Assembly: GCA_036323555.1 (NCBI GenBank)
Contig: AP028972.1
Span: 5,757,696 to 5,821,695 of the forward strand
Direction of reading: 5' to 3'
DNA from: Opitutales bacterium ASA1
GTDB taxonomy: Bacteria > Verrucomicrobiota > Verrucomicrobiia > Opitutales > Opitutaceae
DNA length: 64,000 bases
The notes beneath the pieces are model-generated. The model ran no database searches. It was not told the origin of the DNA and worked only from the letters and a program-made list of their open reading frames with translations. Shown piece by piece: positions 33,470 through 49,177 of the stretch. The position numbers and the translations under genes were made by a program. Position 1 is the stretch's first letter. Each line of letters begins with the position of its first letter.

Positions 33470-35566
33470 ATGAAAGAATACGACTCTGCCGACATCCGAA
33501 ACTTCGCCATCGTCGGCCACGCCTCTTCCGGCAAGACGATGCTGGCCGAGGCCATGCTCGCGTGCAGCGGCGTCATCGGCCGAATGGGCTCGATCGCCGC
33601 CGGCACGACCGCCTCCGACTACCACACGAGCGAAAAGGAGCACCGCATCTCGGTCCACGCCTCGCTCCTCCACACCGAGTGGAACGGCCGGAAGTTCAAC
33701 ATCATCGATACCCCCGGCTACCAGGACTTCATCAGCGAAGGCCTCGCCGCGCTGCGCGTCGGAGACTTCGCCCTCGTCGTCGTCCACGCTTCGCACGGTG
33801 TCCACGTCGGCACCGACAAGGTCTGGGATTACGCGACGCACTACGGGCTGCCCAAGGTCGTCGTCGTCAACGCCCTCGACAAGGAGCACGTCGACTTCGA
33901 CGCCACGCTCGCCCAAGTGCGCGAGCACTTCGGACGCAACGTCTTTCCCATGACCGTGCCCCTCGACGCCGGCCCCGGTTTCCACCGTACGCTCGACGTC
34001 ATGCGCAGTGCCGTCATGACCTACAAGACCGACGGCTCCGGCAAGTTCGAGCAGAGCCCCGCCGAAGGTGAATTCGCCGAGCGCGTGAAGGAGATGCACC
34101 GCGCCTTGATCGAATACGTCGCGGAGTCGGATCCGGAGTTGATGGAAAAGTTCTTCGAACAGGACGGCCTGTCCGAGGAAGAACTCCGTGCCGGCATTCA
34201 CAAGGCCATCCAGGAACAAGTCTTCATCCCGCTCTACGCCGTCTCCGCCGAGACCAACGTCGGTATCGCTCGGCTCATGGACCTCATCGCCAAGTTCGGC
34301 TCGTCGCCGCTCGACCGCCTCGTCGTCCACGCCCACGACGCCGAAGGCCGCGATGTCGAGGTCTCCCTCGAGAGCAACGAACCCGTCTGTTACGTGTTCA
34401 AGACGATGAACGAGCCCGGCGTCGGCGAGTTGTCTTTCTTTCGCGTCTACGCCGGTACGGTCCGCAGTGGCAGCGAACTCCACAATGCCTCGCGCAAGAA
34501 CACCGAACGCGTCGGCCAGATTTACGTGCTCAACGGCCACGACCGCACACCCGTGCCCATGCTCCATGCCGGAGACCTCGGGGCCGTCGTGAAGCTGCGC
34601 GACACGCACACCGGCGATACGCTCTGCAGTCCCAAGTTCGTCGTCTCCCTGCCTCGCGTCGTGTACCCGAAGCCCAACATCCACGGCGCGCTCAAGCTCC
34701 GCAGCAAGGGCGACGAGGACAAGATCGCCATGGGTCTCTCCACCCTCCACGAGGAGGACCCCACCTTTCTCTGGCGCGTCGACGGCGAGATCCACCAAAC
34801 GATCATCTCCGGCCAAGGCGAGCTGCACATGCAGATCATCGTCGAGCGCCTGAAACGACGCTTCAACGTCGAGGTCGAACTCGAGGAACCGCGCGTCCCC
34901 TTCCGCGAGACCATCCGCGCCCACGCGGACTCGCGCTACCGCCACAAAAAGCAAACCGGCGGCGCTGGCCAGTTCGCCGAAGTCTGGCTGCGCATCGAGC
35001 CCGGCCCGCGCGACAGCGGCGTCGACTTCCACCAGTCGCTCGTCGGCACCAACGTCGACCGCGTGTTCGTTCCTTCCGTGGAGAAAGGCGTCAATACCGC
35101 CTGCACCGAAGGCATCGTCGCAGGCTGCCGGGTGGTCGACGTGAAGATCGACTTCTACGACGGGAAGATGCACCCCGTCGACTCCAAGGACATCGCCTTC
35201 CAGATCGCCGGCTATTTCGCCTTCAAGGAAGCCTTCGTGCAGGCCAGCCCCTGCCTGCTCGAGCCCATCTGCACGATCCACGTCACCGTGCCCGACGAGC
35301 ACCTCGGCGATATCATGGGCGACATCTCCGCCCGGCGCGGACGTATCCTCGGAGTGGAGACGGAAGGCCGCTTCCAGACGGTGAAAGCAAACGTCCCGCA
35401 GAAAGAGCTCTATCGCTACAGCACCCACGTTCGCTCGCTCACCGGCGGTCGCGGCACCCATTCCGAAGAATTCAGCCACTACGAGCAGATGCCGGCCGAA
35501 CTCGAACAAAAGGTCGTCGCCGAAGCGCGCGCCCGCAAGGAAGCCGCCGACGCCCATCACCGCTGA
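33470..35566 (+). CDS. Elongation factor G-like GTPase (EF-G paralogue)
   Basis: A 698-residue translational GTPase with the full EF-G domain order: G domain (1-~265), domain II (~280-360), III (~380-455), IV and V to the end (DIMGDISARRGRILGVETEGRFQTVKANVPQKELYRYSTHVRSLTGGRG). P-loop GHASSGKT (16-23) is intact. Two nucleotide-binding motifs are altered: DTPGYQDF (80-87) has Tyr84 instead of the catalytic His, and NALD (134-137) has Ala instead of Lys in N-K-x-D. These changes mark a paralogue, not the essential fusA product. Its ribosome role is unknown; slow or no GTP hydrolysis is possible. Confidence 0.9.
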   Translation: MKEYDSADIRNFAIVGHASSGKTMLAEAMLACSGVIGRMGSIAAGTTASDYHTSEKEHRISVHASLLHTEWNGRKFNIIDTPGYQDFISEGLAALRVGDFALVVVHASHGVHVGTDKVWDYATHYGLPKVVVVNALDKEHVDFDATLAQVREHFGRNVFPMTVPLDAGPGFHRTLDVMRSAVMTYKTDGSGKFEQSPAEGEFAERVKEMHRALIEYVAESDPELMEKFFEQDGLSEEELRAGIHKAIQEQVFIPLYAVSAETNVGIARLMDLIAKFGSSPLDRLVVHAHDAEGRDVEVSLESNEPVCYVFKTMNEPGVGELSFFRVYAGTVRSGSELHNASRKNTERVGQIYVLNGHDRTPVPMLHAGDLGAVVKLRDTHTGDTLCSPKFVVSLPRVVYPKPNIHGALKLRSKGDEDKIAMGLSTLHEEDPTFLWRVDGEIHQTIISGQGELHMQIIVERLKRRFNVEVELEEPRVPFRETIRAHADSRYRHKKQTGGAGQFAEVWLRIEPGPRDSGVDFHQSLVGTNVDRVFVPSVEKGVNTACTEGIVAGCRVVDVKIDFYDGKMHPVDSKDIAFQIAGYFAFKEAFVQASPCLLEPICTIHVTVPDEHLGDIMGDISARRGRILGVETEGRFQTVKANVPQKELYRYSTHVRSLTGGRGTHSEEFSHYEQMPAELEQKVVAEARARKEAADAHHR

Positions 35567-35763: not shown

Positions 35764-37137
35764 ATGAAGGAACTCCACAGAGCCGGAATGAGCACCAACC
35801 ACCCAGCGACACCCTCGGAACACCCAAGGGCGATCGCCCCCGAATCCGTCCGCGCCGCGATCGAACACTTCGCCGCCTGCCGACCGGACGCGGAGGCCGT
35901 CGTCATGGACGGCCGCACCCTCACGTACTCCGAACTCTGCGCGCGTTCCAACCGACTCGCCGACCAACTCCTGCTTCAAGGCGTCGGCCCCGAGGTCCCC
36001 GTCGGTCTCCTCTGCGAACGCGGCCTGGAAGCAATGGTCGGCATGTTGGCCATCCTCGCCGCCGACGGCGTCTGCGTCCCCTTCGACCCTTCGCTGCCGA
36101 CCGAACGTCTCCGCACGATGATCGCTCTCGCCGGACTTCGACTCGTGGTCACCACCGAGTCGATGCAACGCGCTCGGACCGCCGTCGATGGCCCCGTCGC
36201 GCTCGTCCGCGTCGACGGCCCGCCCCCGCGCGCACCCAATCTCCAATCGCGACTTCGACCCGAAAACACCGCGTGCATCCACTTCACCGCCGGTCCCGGC
36301 GGTCGACCACGCGCGGTGCCCGTCTCGCACGCTGCATCCGAAAACCTGATACGTTGGCAAAGGACGGCTCTTCCGCTCGAGCCCGGAGCACGGGTGCTGC
36401 AATTCTCTCCACCCGGTCTCGATTCCGCATGGCAGGAAATCGCGAGCACGCTCTCGTCCGGCGGCACGCTGGTGCTTCCGCCCCCGGATCGCCTCGCAAC
36501 GCCGACGGCCCTGCTCGAGCTCATGATCGACGCGCACATCTCTCGCGCGCACCTGCCCGCCGCGACGCTCGCCCACCTCGCCGATGCGTCGAACACCGCC
36601 GCACGGACATTGCCGCACCTGCGCGACGTCGTCGCGATCTGCGGACCCGTGCTCGTCTCCCACGAGATCCGCGCGTTCTTCACCTCCCACCCGCAGTGCA
36701 GGCTTCACGCTCACTACGGCCACGCCGAGACGCTCGTCGCGTTTTCCCACACGGTCTCCGGCTCCCCAGCGACTTGGCCTTCGATCCTTCCGCTTGGTCG
36801 CCCCATCCGCTCGGTCGCACCCGTCCTGCTCGACCCCGTCGACCAACAACCCGCGCGCGGCGACGCGGGCGAACTCTGGATCGGCGGTCCGTATCAAGCC
36901 CGCAACTACCACCGCGATCCCGTCGCCACCCGCGAACGCTTCCGTCCGGATCCCTTCGCCCCCGAAGGCAGCACGGCACGCATCTTTCGCACGGGTGACC
37001 ACGTACGCCTCGACGAGGACGGTGTGTTCGAGTTGTCCCGTCCCGGCGTCCCCTCGAACCGAGCTCCGACGAAAGGCGGCCGCAAGACCGTCCTGCCGTC
37101 GCGCCTTCACGATCAGAGCACCCGGCAACCCGCCTGA
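35764..37137 (+). CDS. Degenerate stand-alone adenylation-like protein
   Basis: A 457-residue protein with an NRPS adenylation fold through core motif A8. TYSELCARSNRLADQL (A1), LAADGVCVPFDPSLPTERL (A2) and GELWIGGPYQARNYH (A7) are clear. Motif A3 is HFTAGPGGRPRAVPVSH (near 173-189) where active domains have YTSGSTGxPKGV, so Ser, Thr and Lys are lost; A5 is HYGHAETLV (near 317) instead of NxYGPTE. The protein stops soon after A8 (RIFRTGDHVRLDEDG) and lacks A9, A10 and the C-terminal subdomain with the catalytic lysine. It is therefore probably inactive as an adenylase. It lies 10 bp before the A-PCP gene. An in-frame ATG at 35788 is an alternative start. Confidence 0.7.
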   Translation: MKELHRAGMSTNHPATPSEHPRAIAPESVRAAIEHFAACRPDAEAVVMDGRTLTYSELCARSNRLADQLLLQGVGPEVPVGLLCERGLEAMVGMLAILAADGVCVPFDPSLPTERLRTMIALAGLRLVVTTESMQRARTAVDGPVALVRVDGPPPRAPNLQSRLRPENTACIHFTAGPGGRPRAVPVSHAASENLIRWQRTALPLEPGARVLQFSPPGLDSAWQEIASTLSSGGTLVLPPPDRLATPTALLELMIDAHISRAHLPAATLAHLADASNTAARTLPHLRDVVAICGPVLVSHEIRAFFTSHPQCRLHAHYGHAETLVAFSHTVSGSPATWPSILPLGRPIRSVAPVLLDPVDQQPARGDAGELWIGGPYQARNYHRDPVATRERFRPDPFAPEGSTARIFRTGDHVRLDEDGVFELSRPGVPSNRAPTKGGRKTVLPSRLHDQSTRQPA

Positions 37138-37147
37138 GGTCGTCGCC

Positions 37148-39046
37148 ATGGACGGATCCGACTTCACGTTCACACCGGTCCACGAATCGTTTCGCTCGGT
37201 TGCGGCTCGGATCCCCGGGGTCGTAGCCGTCTCTCACGAAGGCAAGACGCTGACCTACGGCGCGCTCGACGCCGCCTCCGTGCGCCTCGCACGCCGATTG
37301 CGCGCCGTCGGTGCCCGGCCGGAAGCGCGCATCGCCCTCCACCTCGATCGATCGCCGGACTTCGCAGTCGCCCTGCTCGGCACGTTACGATCCGGCGCCG
37401 CGTTCGTGCCCTTGGATCCGGCATGGCCTGCCGACCGCGTCGCACGCATCCTCCGAGACAGCGGCGCGATCGCATGCGTCGTCTCGCCGGAGTCGCCGCT
37501 TCCGTTCGCGACCTCGCTCCCGGTGCTCGATTCGACTTCGCACAACGACCTCGACGGCCCGGAATGGCCCGGCGCCGAGGAGGCCCCCGCATCCACGCTG
37601 TCCGTACACCTCGCCTACGTCCTCTACACGTCGGGCTCCACCGGTGAACCCAAGGGCGTACAGATCGAACACGGTGCCCTCGCCGCGCACCTCGCGAGCA
37701 TCGGTACCGTGCATCGCATCGCCCCCGACGACCGCTGCCTCCTCTTCCACGGCATCGCGTTCGACCCCGTGATCGAACAGCTCTTCGCCCCGCTGCTCTG
37801 TGGCGCGCGCGTCGTGATGCGCGGTGAACGTCTCTGGAACTCCGAAGAGTGCGCCGCTTTCGTCGAGCGCCACGCCCTCACCGTCGCGACCTTTCCCGCG
37901 GCCTACTGGCTGCACTTGCTGCGCGGCTGGCAGGCGTCCGGCGTGCCGGCCGGACTGCGCACGCTGCGCCAAGTCGTGGTCGGCGGCGAAGCCCTGGCAC
38001 CGGCCGCCGTCGAACTCTGGCGCACGCTCGGCCTCACGCGCATCCGTCTGCTCAACGACTACGGGCCGACCGAGGCCACCATCACGGCCACGGTGCACGA
38101 ACTGCCGACCGCACCCGCGACGAACGAGTCCGTCGGCCGCATCCCCATCGGCCGACCGCACCCGTGCATGCGTCTCCATCTCCTGGATACGCACGGCGTC
38201 GAAGTCGCCGTGGGAGAAACCGGCGAGATCCATCTCGCCGGCCCGACGCTCGCCCGCGGCTACCTCGATGCCGAGGAACACACCCGAGCGCGCTTCTTCA
38301 TGCACGCCGCCGCCGACGACCTGCGGCTCTACCGCACCGGAGACCTCGCCCGTTTCCACACCGACGGCACGCTCGACTTCCTCGGACGCGTCGACGACCA
38401 AGTGAAGATCCGCGGCCACCGCGTCGAACTCGGCGAGGTCGAGACGTGCTTGCGCCGTCTTCCGCACGTGGTCGACGCCGCGGTGGTCGTCGTCGACAAG
38501 GGCGATTCCGACAAGCACCTCGCGGCGTTCCTCGTCTGCGAGAGCCCTGGAGGCCACGACCCCGTCGAGTTTCGCTCGCGGCTCGCGCAGGCACTTCCGC
38601 AAGCCGCCATCCCGGCGGAGTTCCACTTTCGTATCCGTCTTCCGGCTACGACCAACGGAAAAATCGATCGTGCCGCACTCGCCGACTCGCTCCGAGGGGC
38701 TCCGCTCGACTCGTCGCCCGGAGAACCATCCGACATCGCCTCCTCGACCGAACTCCTCGTCGCCGACGCGTGGGCTCGCGCGCTCGGCCGCGAGGCTCTG
38801 GGCGCGGACGAAGACCCGTTCCAGCTCGGCGCGACTTCGCTCACCGTCACCCGCGTGCACGAAGCTCTCCAGCTCGCCCTGCAACGGCGCTTCTCGGTCG
38901 CCGGTCTCTACGAACTCCGCACTCCCCGCGCACTCGCCGCACGCCTCGACCAGCGCCAAGGCGAGGCCATGACGAGCGCCATCGCGCGCGCCCGACAACA
39001 ACGTCAGGCCATCGCACGACGTCGTCCCACACCCAACTCCCGATGA
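37148..39046 (+). CDS. NRPS loading protein: adenylation - peptidyl carrier (A-PCP)
   Basis: A 632-residue two-domain protein. The A domain (~10-520) has all core motifs intact: YTSGSTGEPKGVQIEH (A3, near 160), DYGPTEATI (A5), GEIHLAGPTLARGYLD (A7), YRTGDLARFHTDGTLDFLGRVDDQVKIRGHRVELGEVE (A8) and NGKIDR (A10). The ten specificity residues, aligned by eye to GrsA, read D P E T V G D I T K; Asp at the first position fits an alpha-amino acid. The PCP (~535-605) has FQLGATSLTVTRV with Ser564 as the 4'-phosphopantetheine site. It has no condensation domain, so it should load the starter. Its stop overlaps the megasynthase start as ATGA. Confidence 0.92.
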   Translation: MDGSDFTFTPVHESFRSVAARIPGVVAVSHEGKTLTYGALDAASVRLARRLRAVGARPEARIALHLDRSPDFAVALLGTLRSGAAFVPLDPAWPADRVARILRDSGAIACVVSPESPLPFATSLPVLDSTSHNDLDGPEWPGAEEAPASTLSVHLAYVLYTSGSTGEPKGVQIEHGALAAHLASIGTVHRIAPDDRCLLFHGIAFDPVIEQLFAPLLCGARVVMRGERLWNSEECAAFVERHALTVATFPAAYWLHLLRGWQASGVPAGLRTLRQVVVGGEALAPAAVELWRTLGLTRIRLLNDYGPTEATITATVHELPTAPATNESVGRIPIGRPHPCMRLHLLDTHGVEVAVGETGEIHLAGPTLARGYLDAEEHTRARFFMHAAADDLRLYRTGDLARFHTDGTLDFLGRVDDQVKIRGHRVELGEVETCLRRLPHVVDAAVVVVDKGDSDKHLAAFLVCESPGGHDPVEFRSRLAQALPQAAIPAEFHFRIRLPATTNGKIDRAALADSLRGAPLDSSPGEPSDIASSTELLVADAWARALGREALGADEDPFQLGATSLTVTRVHEALQLALQRRFSVAGLYELRTPRALAARLDQRQGEAMTSAIARARQQRQAIARRRPTPNSR

Positions 39047-42000
39047 ACGAAGCCACACGCAACACGCCGACCGCTCTTCCCGAAAACGCCGTCGCCATCG
39101 TCGGCATGGCCGGACGTTTCCCGGGCGCACCGGACATCCGCGCGTTCTGGAAGAACCTCTGCGGCGGCATCGAATCCCTCCGTCGTTTCGACGACGCCGC
39201 ACTCGCGGCCGTCCCTCCCGCTGCTCGCACACACGAGAGCTACGTGCCCGTCCGCGGCGTGCTCGACGACGTCGACCGTTTCGATGCGGCCTTCTTCGGA
39301 ATCGGTCCGCGCGAGGCGGAGGCCATGGATCCGCAACATCGACTCTTTCTCGAGTGCTGTTGGCACGCCTTGGAAGATGCCGGACGCGTCGCCGATCGAC
39401 GCTCGTTGGTCACCGGCGTGTTCGCAGGCCAGAGCCTCGCCACTTACCTCCTGCAAAACCTCTGCCACGATCGCGCGTTCATCGAGCGCATCACCGCCGC
39501 CTACCAGACCGGCGAGTTCCCCGTCCTGTTCGGCAACGACCCCGCCTTTCTCGCGACGCGTGTCGCTCACAAGCTCGACCTCCGCGGCCCCGCCGTGACG
39601 GTGCAGACGGCATGCTCTACCTCGCTCGTCGCCGTCGCGCAAGCCGTGCAGAGCCTGCTCACGCATCAGTGCGACCTCTGTCTCGCCGGCGGTGTATCCA
39701 TTTCTTTCCCACAAGAACGCGGCCACGTGCACCAAGAGGGATCGATGGTCTCGCCCGACGGACACTGCCGCCCGTTCGACGCGGAAGCCGCCGGCACGGT
39801 CTTCGGCAGCGGAGTCGGTGTGGTCGTCCTACGAAGACTCGAGGACGCCGTCGCCGCCGGAGACCGCATCCACGCCGTCATCCGCGGAGTCGCGATCAAC
39901 AACGACGGAGCCGACAAGTCCAGCTACTCCGCCCCCAGCGTCGCCGGCCAACGCGAGGCGATCGTCACCGCCCTCACGCTCGCCGACGTCGCGCCCTCCA
40001 CGATCGGCTACGTGGAGGCGCACGGCACCGGCACCCCGCTCGGCGATCCCATCGAGTTCGAAGCCTTGTCCCAAGCGTTCCGCGATTGCGGAGCCGAAGG
40101 AAACGCCTTCTGCACACTCGGCTCGCTCAAGAGCAACATCGGGCACCTCGAAGCGGCCGCCGGCGTCGCCGGCCTGATCAAAGCCGCTCTCGTCGTGCGC
40201 GACGGCTACTTGCCGCCCACGCTTCACTTCAACACACCCAATCCACACATCCATTTCGCCACCAGCCCGTTTCGTGTCGAATCCGTGGGACGCGTCTGGC
40301 CGGAAAACACCGGGCCGCGCCGCGCCGGTGTCAGCTCGTTCGGCGTCGGCGGGACGAACGCACACGTCGTTCTCGAAGAACCGCCCGCCTCCCTCCCGGT
40401 GCCACCGCTCGCCACCGCCGGTGCGCCCACCCGCCCCGCCGTTCTCCTGCTCTCGGCCAAGACGGACGCCTCCCTGAGTACGGCTGCCGCCACACTCGCC
40501 TCCCACCTCGAAGCAAGCGGCGACCTCGCCCTCGAGAACGTCGCGCACACCTTGGCTCACGGCCGACAAACGTTCACCCGTCGCGCCGGCATCGCGGCGT
40601 ATTCGCGCGAGCAGGCCACCGCGGCTCTTCGTTCTTCGAGCGACCGCGCACTCGTCACCGAACTCTTCGCAAGTCCCCCGCGCATTGTATTCATGTTTCC
40701 AGGACAGGGTGCGCAACGAGCCGGCATGTTGCGCGATCTCCACCGCACCGAACCGCTCGTTCGCGACTTGGTCGACCGCTGCGCCCTGATTGCCTCCAAA
40801 CACGTCGGCAGCGATCTGCGCGAACTGCTCCTCGCCGACCCCGACGACGCGAGCGCCGCGGAAGAACTCCGACAGACGCGCATCACCCAGCCGGCACTCT
40901 TCGTCACCGAACTCGTCCTCGCTCGCCTCTGGCAGTCGTGGGGCGTGCAACCCGATCTCCTCGTCGGCCATTCGGTCGGCGAGTACGTCGCCGCGTGCCT
41001 CGCCGACGTCGCCAGCCTCGAGGACACACTCGCGATCGTCGCGCGCCGTGGCGCCCTCGTCCACGAGCAACCCCGAGGATCGATGCTCGCCGTGAGGCTC
41101 GACGAACGGGAGCTGGAAACGCTCGTCCCCGCCGACTGCGCGATCGCAGCCGTCAACGCGCCCGGACTCTGCGTCGTCGCCGGTCCGGACGCTTCGATCA
41201 CGAAACTCGAAGTCGCGCTGGAGAAGGACGGCCGACCCGGCCGCCGCCTCGTCACGTCGCACGCGTTTCATTCGCCCATGATGGACTCCGTCGTCCCGGC
41301 CCTCGCGGAAACGATCGCCGGCACGCCTCTGCGTCGCCCGAAGATACCGATCGTATCCACGGTTTCAGGACGACTCCTCTCCGAGGACGAAGCACGCGAT
41401 CCGCACTACTGGGCGCGGCACGCCCGACGCACCGTCCGCTTCGCCGACGCGCTCGCAGGGGCGATCGACACCACGCCCACCGTCCTGATCGAAGTCGGCC
41501 CCGGAACCACGCTCTCGCAGCTCGCACGCCTCAACCCCGCCGTCGGCCCCGCCACCGCCGTGATCACTTCGTTGCCTTTTCGCGGTGATGCGCCCGATGG
41601 TGCCCTCGAACTCGCCCAAGCAGCGGTCGACCTCTGGTGCCGCGGCGTTCCGGTCGATTGGCGTCGCCGCGACGAACACTCGGCTCGCCGGATCGTGTCT
41701 CTCCCCGGCTACTCCTTCGCCGACACCCGCTACTGGATCGCTCCGCCGACGCCGGTCCCCGAGATCGCTTTCGCTCCAGCACCTGAAGTCGAACCCCGGC
41801 CCACTGCCGAGTCCACGCCCGAGGAGATCGCGACCGCCCCGGACGAACCCCGACTCGCGCGCCTGCGACGCGAAACGCTCGCGATGCTCGAAGACGTCTC
41901 GGGCGGATCGCTCGGGCACGATTCGCTCGACCGCAACCTCCTCGATCTCGGTTTCGATTCACTTCTGCTCGCGCAAGTTTCCTCCCGCCTGCGCGAGCGC

Positions 42001-45000
42001 TTCGGCGTCACGGTCTCGTTTCGACAACTCATGGAGCGCTTCGGCACCCCCGATGCGCTCGCCCGCCACCTCGACGAGACGCTGCCGCCCGACCCCGTCG
42101 TACCGCGCTCGCTCACCGTTGCCGCCGCGCACGCTGCACCACCGGCATCCACCGTCGAGCAGCTCGTCCGACAACAACTCGAACTCATGCGCAACCAGCT
42201 CGCTTTGCTGGAAAGCGCCGGCGCCTCGGGCGCGATGGCCACGACGCTCCGTACTGCCATCGAGTCCGCCGGAAAGACACCGCTCGCTCCGCCCGCGAAC
42301 ACGAGCAAGTCGGAACCCACGCCCGAATCGGCCGCTCCTGCGCGCCACGGGCCGTTCCGTCCGGTCGAGAAGAAGCGCGACGAATCGCTCAGCGAGCGCC
42401 AACGCGCGCACCTCGCCGAGTTGATCGCCACCTACTGCGCCCGCACCGGCACGAGCAAGCGTCACGCCGCCGAACATCGCACGGAGTTTTGCGATCCGCG
42501 TTCCATCAGTGGTTTCAACCCGCTCTGGAAGGAAATGGTCTACCCGCTCGTCTGCGAGCGCTCGAAAGGTCCACGCCTCTGGGACGTCGACGGCAACGAG
42601 TACATCGACATCACCATGGGTTTCGGGGTGAACTATCTCGGACACTCGCCGGACTTCGTTTCGCAGGCGTTGCGCAAACAGATCGCCGCCGGCTACGAGA
42701 TCGGGCCGCAGACGCCGCTCGCGGGCGAGACCGCGCGCATGCTCTGCCGTATGACCGGCATGGAACGCGCCACGTTCTGCAACACCGGCTCCGAAGCCGT
42801 CATGGCCGCCATGCGCGTCGCACGCACCGTGACGGGTCGCGATCGCATCGTCGTTTTCTCCGGCGACTACCACGGCATGTTCGACAGCGTGCTCGTCCGC
42901 GGCGTCCTGCGTAATGGAAAACCACATACGCTTCCCATCGCACCCGGCATCCCACGAGGACTGATCGACGACGTCACCGTACTCGAATACGGCGCCGACG
43001 CCTCGCTGGAGTGGATCGCCGCCCACGCGCACGAACTCGCGGCGGTGATCGTCGAACCCGTGCAGTCGCGCAACCCGGGCCTGCAACCACGAGCGTTTCT
43101 CCACCGCGTGCGCGAGATCACCGCGGCCGCGGACACCGCGCTCGTCTTCGACGAAGTCATCACCGGTTTCCGTTGCCACCAAGGCGGCGCTCAGGCGTGG
43201 TTCGACGTCCGCGCCGACATGGCCACCTACGGCAAGGTCATCGGCGGAGGCATGCCCATCGGCGCGCTCGCCGGATCGCGCAAGTGGCTGGACGCGCTCG
43301 ACGGTGGCCACTGGAACTACGGAGACGACTCGATCCCCGAAGTCGGCGTCACCTTCTTCGCCGGCACGTTCGTCCGTCACCCGCTGGCCGTAGCGGCGGC
43401 ACACGCCGCCCTGACGCATCTCGAAGCCGAAGGTCCGGAGCTGCAGGAGCGGGTGAACCGAAACGCCGCTCGCCTCGTCGCCGAACTCGAGACCGTGTTC
43501 ACCGAACGCGGCGTCGACGCCACGGTCGAGCGCTTCGCCTCCGTACTTCGACTCGAACTCTCGCACGACTACAAGCACGCCGGCCTCTTCTTCTTCCACC
43601 TCCGGCTGCGCGGCATCCACTTCTGGGAGGGACGCGTGGCGTTTCTCTCCACCACGCACACGGACGCCGACATCGACCGCATCGTCGTGGTCGTCCGCGA
43701 GGCGATCGAAGCGATGCAGGAAGGCGGCTTTCTCCCGCAACCCGACGGCACGACCGCCGGTGCACCCGAAGCACGACCACGACCCTACCGCATCGTCGAG
43801 AAGCCCGACGGTCGCCAAGTACCGTTGACCGAAGAACAGCACGAGATCTGGACCGCGTGCCAACTCGGCGATGCGGCTTCGGCGAACTTCAACGAGTCCG
43901 GCACCCTCCACCTCGCCGGCGCGGTGGACGAAAAGGCCCTCCGACTCGCGGTCCAAGACGTGGTCGTCCGCCACGAGGCCTTGCGCACCGTGTTCCTCCC
44001 GGACGGCAGTGCGCAGTCCATCCGCCCGCGCATCGAAGTGCCGATCGAAACCTTCGCCCTTCCGACCGATCCCATCGCCCGCGAAGCGGTGTTGCGTGCC
44101 GAGGCCTCGCGTCCCTTCGACCTCGTACGCGGGCCCCTCGTGCGTTTTCTCCTCGATGCCTCCTCGCCGGGAGGCGCGACGCTCGTCTTCACCGCACACC
44201 ATCTCGCCTGCGACGGTTGGTCCTACGACATCGTCGTGCGGGAACTCGCGCGCTGCTACTCCGCCCGCGTCGCCGGCACCGAGCCGCTGTTGCCCACGCC
44301 CGTGCAGATATCGGCCTTCGCCGCCGAAGCTCCGCTGCGTCGGCACTCGGTCGAAGGCCGCGCCGCGCAGGAATACTGGAAACGCGCGCTCGCGGAACTC
44401 CCCGAGCCGCCCGCACTGCCGGAAGACTTCGCGCGGCCCGAAACCGCTCGTTTCAACGGCGACCGCACGTCGATCACGATCGCACCCGAGACGCTCGCGG
44501 CGGTGGAGCAATTCGCCCGCGGTCGCCGCGCCACGCTCTTCGCCACGCTCTACGCCACGTTCGGTTCACTCGTACATCGGCTCTCCGGCACGTCGGACTT
44601 CCTCGTCGGCGTGCCCATGGCGGGCCAAAACATCCACGACGTCGGCACGCTCGTGGGCCACTGTGTCCACTTTCTCCCTACACGCCATCGGGTGGTTCCC
44701 ACGGCGAGTTTCGGGGAGCACGTCGACGCCACCAGCGCGGTGCTCTTGGAGGCGTTCGAGCACGCGCATGTTTCCTTCGGCACCCTCTTGCGCGAGTTGC
44801 ATTGGCGTCGCGATCCGTCGCGACCGTCGCCGCTCGGGATCACGTTCAACCTCGATCCGTCCGGCGAACCCGTACGCTTCCAAGGCCTCGAACTCGCGCT
44901 CGAACTCAATCCCCGCAGCACCATCAACGCGGAACTGTGCTTCAATCTGTTGAAGCGCCCCGAAGGTCTCGTGGTGCAGTGCGACTACTGCACCGACCTG

Positions 45001-47967
45001 TTCGCCCAGTCCACGATCGTTCGGTGGCTGCGTCACTTCGAAACACTGCTGCGCGCCGCCGTCGCCAGCCCCGCCACGACCGTGGGTGAACTCCCGCTGC
45101 TCGAGTCCGACGCTTCAGCCGCACTCGCGGACGGAACGCCGGCTCACGAGAGCACGATTCGCCCCGGCCCCGCCCTCTTGCACGGCATCTTCGAGGCCGC
45201 CGCGGAGCGCTCGCTCGATGCGGTCGCGGTGATCGATGCGCGAGGTTCCGTGACCTACGGCGAACTCGACCGGCGCGCCAACCAGCTCGCGCGCCACCTT
45301 CTCGACCGCGGCCTTCCACCGGGCGGACTCGTCGCCCTGCTCTTCGATCGCTCCGTCGAATTCGTCGTCGCGGTCCTCGCCGTGCTGAAGACCGGCAACG
45401 CCTTCGCCCCGCTCGACACCTCGTGGCCGGAAGAACGCTCGGCCGACGTGCTCCGCTCCTGTGGCGCACGACTGCTGCTGGTCGCGGGCAGTCCGCTGCC
45501 GACGGGCTCGCCGCGCGATATCCACTTGGTGGATACGCTCGCCGATGCGTCCACGATCGCGGCCTTGCCGTTCTCGAAATCACACGTCGAGGTTCGTCCC
45601 GAACAGCTCGCCTACGTGATCCACACCTCGGGTTCCACCGGCACGCCGAAGGGCGTCATGGTCGAACACCGCGCCATCTCCGCTCACATCGCGAGCATCT
45701 GCGGCTTCTACGGTTTGCGCCCGGAAGACCGGAGCCTGCTGTTCCATTCGACCGCGTTCGATCCCACGGTGGAGCAGTTGTTCTGCGCGTTTCACGCCGG
45801 TGCTTCGATCCATCTACGCGGCTCGGACCTCTGGTCGGGTGCCGAATTCGCCGCGCGTGTGAAGAGTGCCGACTTGTCGGTGGTCGACGTGCCTCCGCGC
45901 TACCTGCACGAGGTCCTCCATGAGTTGCAGGCGACCGCCGCCCGACCCGATCTCGGCCGGCTCCGGCTCGTCGTCGTCGGAGGCGAAGCGCTCTCGCCGT
46001 GGACGACGCGCCTCTGGCGCGACTGCGGTCTCGGACACATCCGTCTCGTCAACTGCTACGGTCCCACGGAATGCTCCGTCACCGCGACGTGTCACACGAT
46101 CCCGGCGCAACCGTGCGCGCGCGAACTCGCCGGTCGCGTCCCGATCGGGCGACCGCACGGCCCGGTCCGCGCGCTCGTGCTCGACGCACGGCTACAGCCG
46201 CTTCCCGTCGGTCTCGTGGGCGAGCTCTTTCTCGGAGGACCGACCCTCGCCCGTGGTTACCTCGGTGCCGAATCTCTCACGCAAGAGCGCTTCCTCCCCG
46301 ATCCTCGCCGAACCGGCGAGAGGCTCTACCGCACCGGCGATCTCGCGCGACTGCTCGCGGACGGCACGCTCGAGTTTCTCGGTCGCATCGACCGCCAAGT
46401 GCAAATTCGAGGCTACCGCGTGGAAATGGCGGAAGTGGAGAATCACCTCTCCCGTCACCCGTGCGTCGAGCACGCCGTCGTCCTCGACGATGCCGACACC
46501 AACGGATCCGCGATGCTCGTGGCGTTCGTCGTCCCCGTCGACGGAACGACTCTCACGCCGGAAAGCCTGCGCGACCATCTCGCCGCACGCCTGCCCGACT
46601 ACATGCTGCCCGCACGCTACGTAGTGGTGGCGCGGATACCGACCGACCCCAACGGCAAGGTCGACGCTCATGCCTTGCGCCGGCTCGACGCGGGCGAGGG
46701 CGCGGTCGCCGCACGCGACTCCATCCCTCCGCGCAACGCCGACGAGGAGGCGATCGCCGAGATTTGGCGCAAGCTGCTCGGCACTGCACGCGTGGGCGTG
46801 CACGACGACTTCTTCGAACTCGGCGGCCACTCGTTGCTCGCCATGCAGATGCTGCGCCAGCTCAACGCCGCGTTCGGAATCTCGGTGCCGCTCGCGAGTC
46901 TGCTCTCGACGCCCACGATCGAGGGACTGGCGCGACACCTCCCGCTTCGTGCCGAGCCGGAAGGAAACTCGGCTGCGACCACTCGATCCGACGGCTCGAA
47001 AACGGCGGGGACCACAAACACCGCCGTCGTCGAGTCGGCCCCGGCCCTTCTGGGTTCCGGACCCGGCACACCGTTGTTCAACATCCCGGGCGTCCTCGGC
47101 TACGGCATGTTGCCACCGGAACTGATCGCCCAGATACAGCGAGACCGTCCTTACTTCGACGGCCTCCAGCTCCCCGGTGCGGACGGTCGCGAGCCGCCCT
47201 TGGATTCGATCGACGCCATCGCCGACCACCTCGTGAGCCGCATCCGCGCCGTCCGTCCGCACGGCCCGTATGCCCTCACTGGGTACTGCTTCGGCGGTGT
47301 CGTCGCCTACGAAGTCGCCAACCGCCTCGCGGACGAAGGCGAGACGGTACAGGCGCTCGTGCTGTGGCACGCGTTTCCCTGGCACACGTGGCGACTTCGG
47401 ACCCTCCGCGAGCGTTTGCGCGATCTCCCCGATCGTCTCCGCAGCATGACGCCACGGGATCGCTGGCTCACGCTCAAGGGCCGTATCGCCGGTCCCGTTC
47501 GTCACCTCGCACGCCGGGCCGGTATCGAGAGAGACACCGCGCCGGGCGAGTCGCTCTCGCCCGTGCTGGAGGCGAACAACCGAGCCGACGAGGCGCACCG
47601 CATCGCACGTCCCTACCACGGTCGCCTCTACGTGGCCCGAGCCGCGATCCTTCCGCCGGAGTTGGAGTCGCCTCCGCTCGGCGGCTGGGAAGCGTTCGCG
47701 CGCGGTCCGCTGAAGATCCACGATTTGCCGTGCGAACACCTCGACCTGATCAAGCAGCCTTGGCTGACGGAGATCTCGAAGCTCACCGCGCAGTGGTTGC
47801 GCATGGCCGACTCGGAGCCGATCGAAGGTCGTCCGCGTTCCGCCGTCCCCGACGACGTCGTCGGGGAGTCGGCGCGGCCGTTCGAGCGCACGCCTGGTCT
47901 GCGTGTCTCGACGAACACCTCGCGGACAGGGGCCGGCCCACGTACGACCCCCGCCCCGCGACCGTGA
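39043..47967 (+). CDS. Hybrid PKS-NRPS megasynthase KS-AT-ACP-AMT-C-A-PCP-TE
   Basis: A 2974-residue protein starting at ATG 39043. KS (~15-440): TACSTS with Cys191, EAHGTGTPLGDP, KSNIGH. AT (~545-870): GHSVGEY with Ser644, and HAFH at 740-743, the malonyl-CoA type. ACP: LGFDSLL with Ser973. Class III PLP aminotransferase (~1140-1570): GSEAVMAA, FDEVITGFR and Lys1398 in TYGKVIGGG. Condensation: HHLACDG at 1719-1725. Adenylation: HTSGSTGTPKG near 2194, code by eye D P E D V G C V T K. PCP: FFELGGHSL with Ser2597. TE (~2680-2930): GYCFGG with Cys2749 in place of Ser, and CEHLD with His2899; no Asp where expected (LWHAF, 2774-2778). No reductive domains. Predicted order: extend, transaminate, condense, release. 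It is the last gene of the three-gene set. Confidence 0.95.
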   Translation: MNEATRNTPTALPENAVAIVGMAGRFPGAPDIRAFWKNLCGGIESLRRFDDAALAAVPPAARTHESYVPVRGVLDDVDRFDAAFFGIGPREAEAMDPQHRLFLECCWHALEDAGRVADRRSLVTGVFAGQSLATYLLQNLCHDRAFIERITAAYQTGEFPVLFGNDPAFLATRVAHKLDLRGPAVTVQTACSTSLVAVAQAVQSLLTHQCDLCLAGGVSISFPQERGHVHQEGSMVSPDGHCRPFDAEAAGTVFGSGVGVVVLRRLEDAVAAGDRIHAVIRGVAINNDGADKSSYSAPSVAGQREAIVTALTLADVAPSTIGYVEAHGTGTPLGDPIEFEALSQAFRDCGAEGNAFCTLGSLKSNIGHLEAAAGVAGLIKAALVVRDGYLPPTLHFNTPNPHIHFATSPFRVESVGRVWPENTGPRRAGVSSFGVGGTNAHVVLEEPPASLPVPPLATAGAPTRPAVLLLSAKTDASLSTAAATLASHLEASGDLALENVAHTLAHGRQTFTRRAGIAAYSREQATAALRSSSDRALVTELFASPPRIVFMFPGQGAQRAGMLRDLHRTEPLVRDLVDRCALIASKHVGSDLRELLLADPDDASAAEELRQTRITQPALFVTELVLARLWQSWGVQPDLLVGHSVGEYVAACLADVASLEDTLAIVARRGALVHEQPRGSMLAVRLDERELETLVPADCAIAAVNAPGLCVVAGPDASITKLEVALEKDGRPGRRLVTSHAFHSPMMDSVVPALAETIAGTPLRRPKIPIVSTVSGRLLSEDEARDPHYWARHARRTVRFADALAGAIDTTPTVLIEVGPGTTLSQLARLNPAVGPATAVITSLPFRGDAPDGALELAQAAVDLWCRGVPVDWRRRDEHSARRIVSLPGYSFADTRYWIAPPTPVPEIAFAPAPEVEPRPTAESTPEEIATAPDEPRLARLRRETLAMLEDVSGGSLGHDSLDRNLLDLGFDSLLLAQVSSRLRERFGVTVSFRQLMERFGTPDALARHLDETLPPDPVVPRSLTVAAAHAAPPASTVEQLVRQQLELMRNQLALLESAGASGAMATTLRTAIESAGKTPLAPPANTSKSEPTPESAAPARHGPFRPVEKKRDESLSERQRAHLAELIATYCARTGTSKRHAAEHRTEFCDPRSISGFNPLWKEMVYPLVCERSKGPRLWDVDGNEYIDITMGFGVNYLGHSPDFVSQALRKQIAAGYEIGPQTPLAGETARMLCRMTGMERATFCNTGSEAVMAAMRVARTVTGRDRIVVFSGDYHGMFDSVLVRGVLRNGKPHTLPIAPGIPRGLIDDVTVLEYGADASLEWIAAHAHELAAVIVEPVQSRNPGLQPRAFLHRVREITAAADTALVFDEVITGFRCHQGGAQAWFDVRADMATYGKVIGGGMPIGALAGSRKWLDALDGGHWNYGDDSIPEVGVTFFAGTFVRHPLAVAAAHAALTHLEAEGPELQERVNRNAARLVAELETVFTERGVDATVERFASVLRLELSHDYKHAGLFFFHLRLRGIHFWEGRVAFLSTTHTDADIDRIVVVVREAIEAMQEGGFLPQPDGTTAGAPEARPRPYRIVEKPDGRQVPLTEEQHEIWTACQLGDAASANFNESGTLHLAGAVDEKALRLAVQDVVVRHEALRTVFLPDGSAQSIRPRIEVPIETFALPTDPIAREAVLRAEASRPFDLVRGPLVRFLLDASSPGGATLVFTAHHLACDGWSYDIVVRELARCYSARVAGTEPLLPTPVQISAFAAEAPLRRHSVEGRAAQEYWKRALAELPEPPALPEDFARPETARFNGDRTSITIAPETLAAVEQFARGRRATLFATLYATFGSLVHRLSGTSDFLVGVPMAGQNIHDVGTLVGHCVHFLPTRHRVVPTASFGEHVDATSAVLLEAFEHAHVSFGTLLRELHWRRDPSRPSPLGITFNLDPSGEPVRFQGLELALELNPRSTINAELCFNLLKRPEGLVVQCDYCTDLFAQSTIVRWLRHFETLLRAAVASPATTVGELPLLESDASAALADGTPAHESTIRPGPALLHGIFEAAAERSLDAVAVIDARGSVTYGELDRRANQLARHLLDRGLPPGGLVALLFDRSVEFVVAVLAVLKTGNAFAPLDTSWPEERSADVLRSCGARLLLVAGSPLPTGSPRDIHLVDTLADASTIAALPFSKSHVEVRPEQLAYVIHTSGSTGTPKGVMVEHRAISAHIASICGFYGLRPEDRSLLFHSTAFDPTVEQLFCAFHAGASIHLRGSDLWSGAEFAARVKSADLSVVDVPPRYLHEVLHELQATAARPDLGRLRLVVVGGEALSPWTTRLWRDCGLGHIRLVNCYGPTECSVTATCHTIPAQPCARELAGRVPIGRPHGPVRALVLDARLQPLPVGLVGELFLGGPTLARGYLGAESLTQERFLPDPRRTGERLYRTGDLARLLADGTLEFLGRIDRQVQIRGYRVEMAEVENHLSRHPCVEHAVVLDDADTNGSAMLVAFVVPVDGTTLTPESLRDHLAARLPDYMLPARYVVVARIPTDPNGKVDAHALRRLDAGEGAVAARDSIPPRNADEEAIAEIWRKLLGTARVGVHDDFFELGGHSLLAMQMLRQLNAAFGISVPLASLLSTPTIEGLARHLPLRAEPEGNSAATTRSDGSKTAGTTNTAVVESAPALLGSGPGTPLFNIPGVLGYGMLPPELIAQIQRDRPYFDGLQLPGADGREPPLDSIDAIADHLVSRIRAVRPHGPYALTGYCFGGVVAYEVANRLADEGETVQALVLWHAFPWHTWRLRTLRERLRDLPDRLRSMTPRDRWLTLKGRIAGPVRHLARRAGIERDTAPGESLSPVLEANNRADEAHRIARPYHGRLYVARAAILPPELESPPLGGWEAFARGPLKIHDLPCEHLDLIKQPWLTEISKLTAQWLRMADSEPIEGRPRSAVPDDVVGESARPFERTPGLRVSTNTSRTGAGPRTTPAPRP

Positions 47968-47972
47968 CCCGC

Positions 47973-48006
47973 GGCGGGCACGCTTCGCCCTCAGCGCGTG
48001 CCCGCC
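47973..48006. terminator. Hairpin between convergent megasynthase and LptF/G-type genes
   Basis: GGCGGGCACGC (47973-47983) pairs exactly with GCGTGCCCGCC (47996-48006) across a 12-base loop. It lies 5 bp after the megasynthase stop and overlaps the last codons of the convergent permease gene. There is no T-tract on either strand, so it may be a Rho-assisted or bidirectional stop, or an mRNA 3' stabiliser. Confidence 0.4.
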
Positions 48007-49109
48007 ATCAACCACGCGGCGAATGCCGCCATGAAGCCGTTGGGCAACCATGCCGCCACCCACGCCGGCACGGCACCTTGGTCGCCGAGCATGGTGCCGA
48101 TCGTCGCGAGCAGGTAGTAGAGGAAGAACAACGCGAGCGACTTCGAGACGCCGACCGCGGGGTTGACGCGCACGCCCGACACGGCGAACGGCACCGCGAG
48201 GCCCGCGACGATGAGGCAACTGAACGCTCCCGCCATCAGACTGTGCCAACGCACCGCGTAGGCGGCGATCCGCGGATGCTCCGCCGCTTCGGGCGACGCG
48301 AGGATCTCGGAGAGCTCGAAAAACGACAGATCCTTCGGGCGCTTGTCGAAGAGCAACATCCAGTGCGGATCGTCGTCCACCTCGGGCAAGTCGCGTCGCT
48401 CGAACGCGACGGTGCGCAGGATTTCGCCGTCCTCCGGCGAGAACCACGACTCGCGACCGTCGACCAACGTCCAACCTCGCGCGACCTCGTCCCAGAAGCC
48501 CTCGCTCGCGAGCAACCGACGCTCTTCGCGTCCGTTCGCCCCGAGAAAAGAGAGCTGCACCCCGAATCCACGATTTGAATACGGACTGAAGCGCGCCAAC
48601 ATCCACGCGCGCCCCGCGACGCGGTTGTGGTATCCCACGCCCGATACCAGACCGACGTCGGCACCGTCTCCCGCCTGCTCGGCTTGATGCGAAAACTTCA
48701 GGTTCTCGAAGATCAGGCGCGATTGCTCGACCGACCATGGGATGACGCTGCCGTTGAGTTGAAACATCAGGGCGGACAAACCCGCCGCGCACACCCAGAT
48801 CCAGCGAGTCATGCGGAAGAGCCCCACACCCGCCGCGCGCATGGCCACGATCTCGTTGTGTCGGTGCAAAAGCCCCATCGCGTAAAGCAACGACACGAGC
48901 ACCGCGATCGGGACCACTAGCGAGAGGTTGCTCGGTGCGCGCACCGCGTAGTAGAGCGCCATCTCCCCGGCCGTCGCGCCGAAATCGCGCAGGTCTTTGT
49001 AGGTGTCGTAGAGGCTGAAGATCATCTGCAGGCCGAAGGTCGCGCCGACCACCAGCCCCAGGATCTTCAGCCATTCGAACAAGACGTGGCGGTCCAGGAT
49101 GCGAAACAC
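47991..49109 (-). CDS. LptF/LptG-type LPS export permease
   Basis: A ~372-residue YjgP/YjgQ permease: three hydrophobic helices in the first ~115 residues (ILDRHVLFEWLKILGLVVGATFGLQMIFSLYDTYKDL at the start), a periplasmic beta-jellyroll domain, then three C-terminal helices. LLHRHNEIVAMRAAGVGLFRM near 80-100 is the coupling helix that contacts LptB. RIAAYAVRWHSLMAGAFSCLIVAGLAVPFAV follows in the C-terminal half. It moves LPS out of the inner membrane with LptB and LptC. Start is unresolved: GTG 49109 is used, but TTG 49145 is in frame. A second LptF/G gene is not in the window. Confidence 0.88.
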   Translation of the reverse strand: MFRILDRHVLFEWLKILGLVVGATFGLQMIFSLYDTYKDLRDFGATAGEMALYYAVRAPSNLSLVVPIAVLVSLLYAMGLLHRHNEIVAMRAAGVGLFRMTRWIWVCAAGLSALMFQLNGSVIPWSVEQSRLIFENLKFSHQAEQAGDGADVGLVSGVGYHNRVAGRAWMLARFSPYSNRGFGVQLSFLGANGREERRLLASEGFWDEVARGWTLVDGRESWFSPEDGEILRTVAFERRDLPEVDDDPHWMLLFDKRPKDLSFFELSEILASPEAAEHPRIAAYAVRWHSLMAGAFSCLIVAGLAVPFAVSGVRVNPAVGVSKSLALFFLYYLLATIGTMLGDQGAVPAWVAAWLPNGFMAAFAAWLMAGTR

Positions 49110-49177
49110 GGCGCGGGAGTATCGAAACGGTTTTTGATCTGGCAACGTTGCACGGCGATTGCTTTACCGCCCGGAAC

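Follow-up and report, generated by a model that had tools for sequence, protein, structure and literature searches.

The mycosubtilin line starts from a fatty acid, and in the iturin and mycosubtilin lines an acyl ligase loads this starter. Statine- and detoxin-type lines extend an aminoacyl starter with malonyl, as the line described here would do, but their KR leaves a beta-hydroxyl where a beta-amine is predicted here. Microcystin, according to the available part of its source, begins with a phenylpropanoid loaded by an A-PCP didomain, and McyE both makes the beta-amine with its AMT domain and adds the next amino acid (PMC2885083); an earlier note on this DNA had taken all described systems to be started by fatty acids, which the microcystin line contradicts. 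The amine donor of MycA is glutamine, as given in the accessible part of PMC3870968. Compared with mycosubtilin synthase MycA (6kfm, 6kfr, 6kfu), the line studied here is alike over the whole length of the AMT and in the place of the AMT at a PKS-NRPS junction, whereas in place of an acyl ligase it has P0002, an amino-acid-type A-PCP loader with an Asp235 code, and it adds a single residue after the AMT module. Set side by side with McyG/McyE from that partial description, it shares A-PCP loading, an AMT and an amino acid added by the same protein. The microcystin line differs in its several extensions with methylation and reduction and in its long peptide; the present line has a single unmodified extension, then one residue and a TE, and the phenylpropanoid loader and long peptide typical of microcystin and nodularin were not found, A1 having Asp235 and one residue preceding the TE. 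Judged by its sequence, the line looks complete and belongs to an established mechanistic type, MycA/McyE-type beta-amination, apparently with an aminoacyl starter and as one of many in its group.

The window, meaning the whole stretch of DNA analysed, is the terminal 64 kb of a genome of 5.82 Mb in one contig (G000:C1:5757696-5821695). Three genes on the plus strand, P0001, P0002 and P0003, occupy positions 35764-47967 and fill the interval between the genes for EF-G and LptF/LptG (Table 1). The earlier note had described a two-gene system, a loader and a megasynthase; its domain order stands, as does the ATGA junction between loader and KS protein, a 4-base overlap of P0002 and P0003, while the gene count has to be raised to three because P0001 is separate. 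The weakest E-value among the named Pfam domains was 1.2e-7, for the loader's C-subdomain, and the strongest 4.9e-74, so that chance is of no concern for the domain calls. The insertion site was compared in four fetched loci, in two of which EF-G lies next to LptF: relatives G032 and G031 have 226 and 12 bases, respectively, between the tblastn hits, and RNase PH is collinear at the site in both. Given this bare site, the insertion consists of just P0001-P0003. The contig of the third locus (L121) stops about 150 bases past LptF, and in the fourth (L122, 11767-20000, G028) EF-G was not found in the 8.2 kb after LptF; the G028 site possibly holds a different insertion at the same place. No transporter, regulator or tailoring gene was detected by Pfam between EF-G and LptF. 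Two PPTase-family genes are present in the genome, both elsewhere, and could activate the carrier domains.

Table 1. Features of the biosynthetic locus, its borders and the same-genome protein P0005 (positions in the window unless a locus is named).
Feature	Position	Strand	Evidence
EF-G gene, left border, outside the system	33470..35566	+	Pfam; adjoins LptF in G031 and G032
P0001, truncated degenerate A domain, 457 aa	35764..37137	+	PF00501 only, 1.5e-55
P0002, A-PCP loading protein, 632 aa	37148..39046	+	PF00501 4.9e-74, PF13193 1.2e-7, PF00550 6e-8
A1 domain of P0002, core and C-subdomain	37193..38662	+	Pfam
PCP of P0002 (GATSLTVTRVHEAL)	38759..38947	+	Pfam
Basic C-terminal tail of P0002 (RARQQRQAIARRRP...), candidate KS docking element	38987..39043	+	motif count
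P0003, KS-AT-ACP-AMT-C-A-PCP-TE, 2974 aa	39043..47967	+	Pfam and translation
KS, QTACSTSL	39085..40230	+	PF00109 7.1e-73, PF02801 1.2e-41
AT, malonyl-type, GHSVGE/HAFHS	40687..41520	+	PF00698 3.2e-52
ACP, LGFDSLLL	41848..42072	+	one of two PF00550 stretches; position from sequence
AMT, class-III PLP aminotransferase, MycA type, Lys in YGKVIGGGMP	42400..43740	+	PF00202 1.8e-50; 6kfm
C domain, HHLACDG, in post-AMT C clade	43816..45126	+	PF00668; tree
A2 domain, code DPEDVGCVTK	45190..46659	+	PF00501 5.9e-74, PF13193 1.3e-12
PCP2	46750..46941	+	PF00550
TE, GYCFG, Cys at nucleophile position	47071..47757	+	PF00975 5.3e-22
LptF/LptG permease gene, right border, outside the system	47991..49145	-	PF03739
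P0005, C-A-PCP-TE, same-genome protein with MFS gene alongside	L088:4183-8364	-	domain scan

P0003 carries in one protein the KS-AT-ACP-AMT-C-A-PCP order of a MycA/McyE-type module. This order up to the TE, the malonyl-type HAFH motif of the AT (HAFHS) and the lack of reductive domains had all been proposed earlier and were found again. None of the 13 Pfam hits of P0003 belonged to a KR, DH or ER family, and consequently a beta-ketone should reach the AMT. In the PDB search the AMT matched 6kfm (MycA of mycosubtilin synthase) at 1.7e-135 and 455.8 bits over the full query length, versus 180.9 bits for the best stand-alone aminomutase; the PLP-lysine motif is present as YGK. The TE gave no PDB match at E<=0.001. 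Cys occupies the nucleophile position in 11 of the 19 TE segments scanned, P0003 included, and release by cyclisation appears as possible as release by hydrolysis.

The A-PCP loader reported previously exists, as P0002. Its start had been placed at 35764, and a loader starting there was rejected, as that frame stops at 37137 without a PCP. P0002 thus puts an amino-acid-type A loader directly before KS-AT-ACP-AMT, and Asp235 is kept in both working A domains; a fatty-acyl starter for the P0002/P0003 line is ruled out by the A-domain type and Asp235. The PCP of P0002 was closest to rhizobial loader PCPs (37%), and a search of genome contigs with P0002, by exact peptide patterns that reach only close relatives, returned just two loci, at 23-26% identity, which were left aside. 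The A-PCP and the KS are fused in a single chain in five related lines (G338, G579, L042, L044 and L047). Among separate-chain loaders, a shared tail was described by the motif RAxx[QA][RQ]xx[MLIF]x[RKQ], looked for in the last 45 residues of six-frame ORFs longer than 300 aa. Its strict form occurred in 9 of 497 such ORFs, all nine being separate-chain loaders, P0002 among them (9 of 14 loaders of this kind), and in 96 of 28000 shuffled tails; these counts are purely descriptive, since the motif was built from those same sequences. Looser versions were seen by eye in three of the five misses (G546, G461 and G582), and no tail, even in loose form, was seen in G244 and G135. The five fusions and the common tail lend support to the earlier proposal that the KS is fed by the A-PCP protein, with the P0002 tail probably acting as its docking element. 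Such a tail could serve as a portable docking element for engineering.

The ten code positions of the A domains were set by motif anchors on P0002, giving DPETVGDITK for A1, DPEDVGCVTK for A2 and DPEDIGSVTK for the A domain of P0005. Where Pro, Val or Ala is named below, the reading follows codes taken as background (Pro DVQxIAHV, Val DAFWxGGTFK). The same columns in sister domains yield DILQLGMIWK, listed as a Gly code in the available part of PMC12283262, and DFWNVGMVHK, one letter from the Thr code DFWNIGMV in the available part of PMC3207962, and the anchors can therefore be taken as checked. In ornithine-activating PosA (DMEHNGTVSK), the Glu at the third code position binds the amine of the side chain, and mutation of this Glu left no observed activity (PMC10522769). 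PMC12283262 lists two Orn codes: DMEDVGSVDK, with some ability to take Lys, and DGEDHGTVTK. Glu239 together with Asp278 in A2 and in the P0005 A domain matches the Orn/Lys pattern of these codes. A1, on the other hand, agrees with DMEDVGSVDK at only 5 of 10 positions. Because the codes resemble Orn/Lys codes and have Glu at position 3, a cationic amino acid (Orn-, Lys- or Arg-like) is the favoured prediction for both A domains, firmer for A2 than for A1.

The same line might instead take uncharged or unusual amino acids and make a neutral 3,4-diamino pseudo-dipeptide. Neither the A1 nor the A2 code has an exact match among those compared from the available parts of PMC3207962, PMC12283262 and PMC10522769. 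Among the eight plasmid A domains listed as closest to A2, six were read, and three of them had other kinds of code (DPRSLCQMSK, DVWHISLVDK and DANNVGEVGK), which also fits this alternative; the others had DGEDHGTVTK (two of six), a listed Orn code that speaks for the cationic reading, and DVEDVGAVNK (one of six). We nevertheless consider neutral substrates rather unlikely, as Glu239 and Asp278 in A2 and in the P0005 A domain fit the Orn/Lys pattern. All plasmid matches of A1 and A2 were below 60% identity, and the top PDB match of both was linear gramicidin synthase. NCBIfam matched P0002 and P0003 with the models for MxcG (lysine, myxochelin) and SolG (solanimycin), but far below the cut-offs of these models, and the matches were set aside; in the accessible parts of their sources no usable A code was found for SolG (PMC10204066) or MxcG (PMC8400222), nor any A code for polylysine synthetase in that of PMC8117764. 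A near A domain also occurs in Eleftheria terrae.

P0001 was not recognised as a gene of its own in the earlier reading, which accordingly lacked the apparent replacement of A domains. Pfam detected neither an AMP-binding_C subdomain nor a PCP in P0001. It has TAGPGGRPR where relatives have TSGSTGxPKG, so the A3 residues are lost, and the protein stops around motif A8, leaving it without A8-A10. Traits of Pro-type loaders are kept, namely SGSPATWPSILPLG, Asp235, Gln239 and His322. In the A-domain tree P0001 falls in a clade with the Pro-type loaders of G338, G012, G141 and G248 (fork 100/95), nearest to G338 (97/71); its end branch of 1.53 is the third longest of the tree, and its placement is consequently less certain than its support. 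P0001 is a probable relic of an ancestral Pro-type loader, displaced, as we propose, when the A domains were replaced. On the other hand, P0001 could be a working non-catalytic partner that, for instance, chaperones or gates P0002, or it could serve in trans as an A domain that lacks a PCP. Its reading frame of 457 aa is intact, with GC3 of 0.78 vs 0.81 in its neighbours, and it ends 10 bases ahead of P0002; with an intact frame and coding-like GC3 it may not be dead. A working role is nonetheless improbable considering the loss of the A3 residues, A8-A10 and the PCP, and the other scanned lines were without a separate A domain beside the loader, a comparison in which the probes could miss a very decayed one.

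In the A-domain tree, A1, A2 and the A domain of P0005 form one group (100/99), and the Pro-type clade contains, from this line, only the truncated P0001 and no working loader. The C domain of P0003 lies inside a post-AMT C clade of 27 rows (100/99), where the C domain of P0005 is its sister (100/100) and those of the Pro-primed lines G141 and G338 come next (94/86). The TE of P0003 pairs with the TE of a same-genome NRPS at 3.59 Mb (100/99), with 42% identity vs at most 31% to others. The P0003 KS groups weakly with the plasmid lines L043, L044 and L046 (85/73), not with G012, G141 and G248, and its AMT lies outside the 22 other rows. As neither KS nor AMT is nested in Pro/Gly lines, the case for a Pro/Gly ancestor comes from P0001 and the C domain. 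From these positions we infer that a Pro-loader line may have been re-equipped with A domains, perhaps also a TE, related to others of the same genome, P0001 being left over; because the KS and AMT trees place the line outside the Pro/Gly lines, this history, with the direction and order of its events, is put forward conditionally. A Gly-type former A2 is a guess drawn from the sister lines.

The earlier outline, in which an aminoacyl starter is extended by one malonyl unit, transaminated at the beta position, joined to one more amino acid and released by the TE, agrees with the sequence data. We propose that P0002 would adenylate an amino acid, keep it on its PCP and dock on the KS of P0003, probably through its C-terminal tail. 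The KS would condense the aminoacyl starter with one malonyl to a gamma-amino-beta-keto thioester, whose ketone the MycA-type AMT would turn into an amine to give a 3,4-diaminoacyl thioester; the C-A-PCP of P0003 would then attach one more amino acid, and the Cys-type TE would free the product as a free acid or lactam. Since both A domains would by their codes take cationic amino acids, a small polyamino pseudo-dipeptide is expected: Orn used twice would give 3,4,7-triaminoheptanoyl-ornithine (C12H27N5O3), and Lys twice C14H31N5O3. The calculated [M+H]+ values are 290.2187 for the Orn/Orn product (272.2081 with water lost) and 318.2500 for Lys/Lys (300.2394 with water lost). For the whole reading, a line for a cationic 3,4-diamino pseudo-dipeptide with P0001 as a relic, we estimate odds a little better than even (roughly 0.55).

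It is also conceivable that the locus is a remnant that makes no product, being either silent or broken, as one of the three genes is degraded and the insertion has no dedicated transporter or regulator. We regard this as doubtful given that P0002 and P0003 are full length, have the checked catalytic motifs and show coding-like GC3. That P0005 acts in trans with the line to give a longer or branched product exported by the MFS protein might be read from its C and A domains, sisters of the post-AMT C (100/100) and of A2 (100/99) of P0003, and from the adjoining MFS gene, but is quite improbable with a locus about 2.5 Mb distant, a TE in P0003 itself and a P0005 TE unlike it (23% identity). The neighbours of P0005 scanned contained no aminotransferase, despite its post-AMT-type C domain.

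If the proposed cationic 3,4-diamino line is real, it would be a very small, two-protein system for vicinal diamino acids. The closest lines in layout are those of G012, G141, G248 and G338, which share the A-PCP followed by KS-AT-ACP-AMT-C-A-PCP-TE and the order of one extension, one residue and TE. They differ in their Pro-type loader codes and in A2 codes that are Gly-type in G012, G141 and G248 and Val-like in G338; KS-AT and ACP-to-TE are split between ORFs in G012, G141 and G248, while G338 has everything on one chain, and the A2 of G141 has an internal methyltransferase. For a Pro/Gly product of these sister lines, an [M+H]+ of 216.1343 is predicted. Compared with these relatives, the line in the window apparently stands out by a fossil loader and swapped selectors.

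The AMT stretch was searched in 57 relatives. It was found in 10 of 250 genomes of the family sample (E<=1e-70, own genome included), in 17 of 387 of the phylum sample (E<=1e-100, own genome and G012 included) and in 54 plasmid records (E<=1e-40), so AMT lines occur in a few percent of the sampled genomes. We read 31 lines: our own, 9 others from the family, 15 others from the phylum and 6 taken from the 54 plasmid records. The loader before the KS is an Asp235 A domain in 18 of them (G000, G012, G141, G248, G244, G135, G338, G426, G546, G496, G499, G461, G579, L042, L043, L044, L046 and L047), the G244 loader having a weak C-domain match at its start. An amino-acid starter feeding a KS-AMT had been called unusual; with 18 of 31 lines, this starter type is frequent within the group. 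An FkbH-domain loader is present in G482 (298.9 bits) and G582 (299.4 bits), whose layout recurs in G485, G488, G519 and G557; five lines are longer (G086, G232, G109, G345 and G495), which leaves L045, with an ambiguous layout, and G254, whose contig is cut. Literature searches of partial coverage returned no description of diamino-acid or aminoacyl-starter AMT lines, and aminoacyl-primed KS-AMT lines are a grouping that we propose here.

A broader view, which we offer tentatively and hold to be somewhat less likely than not, is that minimal lines for 3,4-diamino or, with FkbH, dihydroxy-beta-amino pseudo-dipeptides are widespread and apparently undescribed, with swappable and often tailed loaders, and that here a Pro and perhaps a Gly selector gave way to A domains for cationic amino acids, akin to another of this genome, while the former loader stayed behind, leading to a new polyamino metabolite. 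Related KS-AMT modules with Pro-, Thr- and Val-type, glyceryl and putative Orn/Lys starters would then be natural experiments with a changed starter selector and constant KS, AT and AMT, and natural A-domain exchange, including which parts tolerate it, would become directly testable if the reading is right. At L079:1367-3568 (299.4 bits) and L080:3421-5220 (298.9 bits), FkbH stands ahead of a PCP and KS-AT-ACP-AMT-C, so that the predicted starter is glyceryl and the expected unit a dihydroxy-beta-amino acid.

Several other loci showed layouts of their own. L042, L043 and L044 are AMT lines carried by plasmids of Variovorax, Rhizobium and Rhodobacter, where genes for polysaccharide export, a tyrosine autokinase and a pyruvyl transferase adjoin them; such neighbours were seen in three of the five annotated plasmid loci read and were absent from L045 and L047. 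The last proteins of these three lines are C-PCP, and in L043 and L044 a thioesterase is matched in part. In the three sister lines L018, L028 and L030, KS-AT and ACP-AMT-C-A-PCP-TE lie on separate ORFs without N runs, either a natural break inside the PKS module or frameshifts. L034, L036 and L040 have a KS-AT-ACP-AMT-C-A-PCP protein followed by many NRPS modules, a McyG/McyE-like layout, the ACP being unmatched in the corresponding protein of L036. The five loci L073-L077 have a common loader code, DLKN[VI]G[TS]DIK, and in L073 the A domain that follows the AMT contains a methyltransferase, with the same gap in L074-L077.
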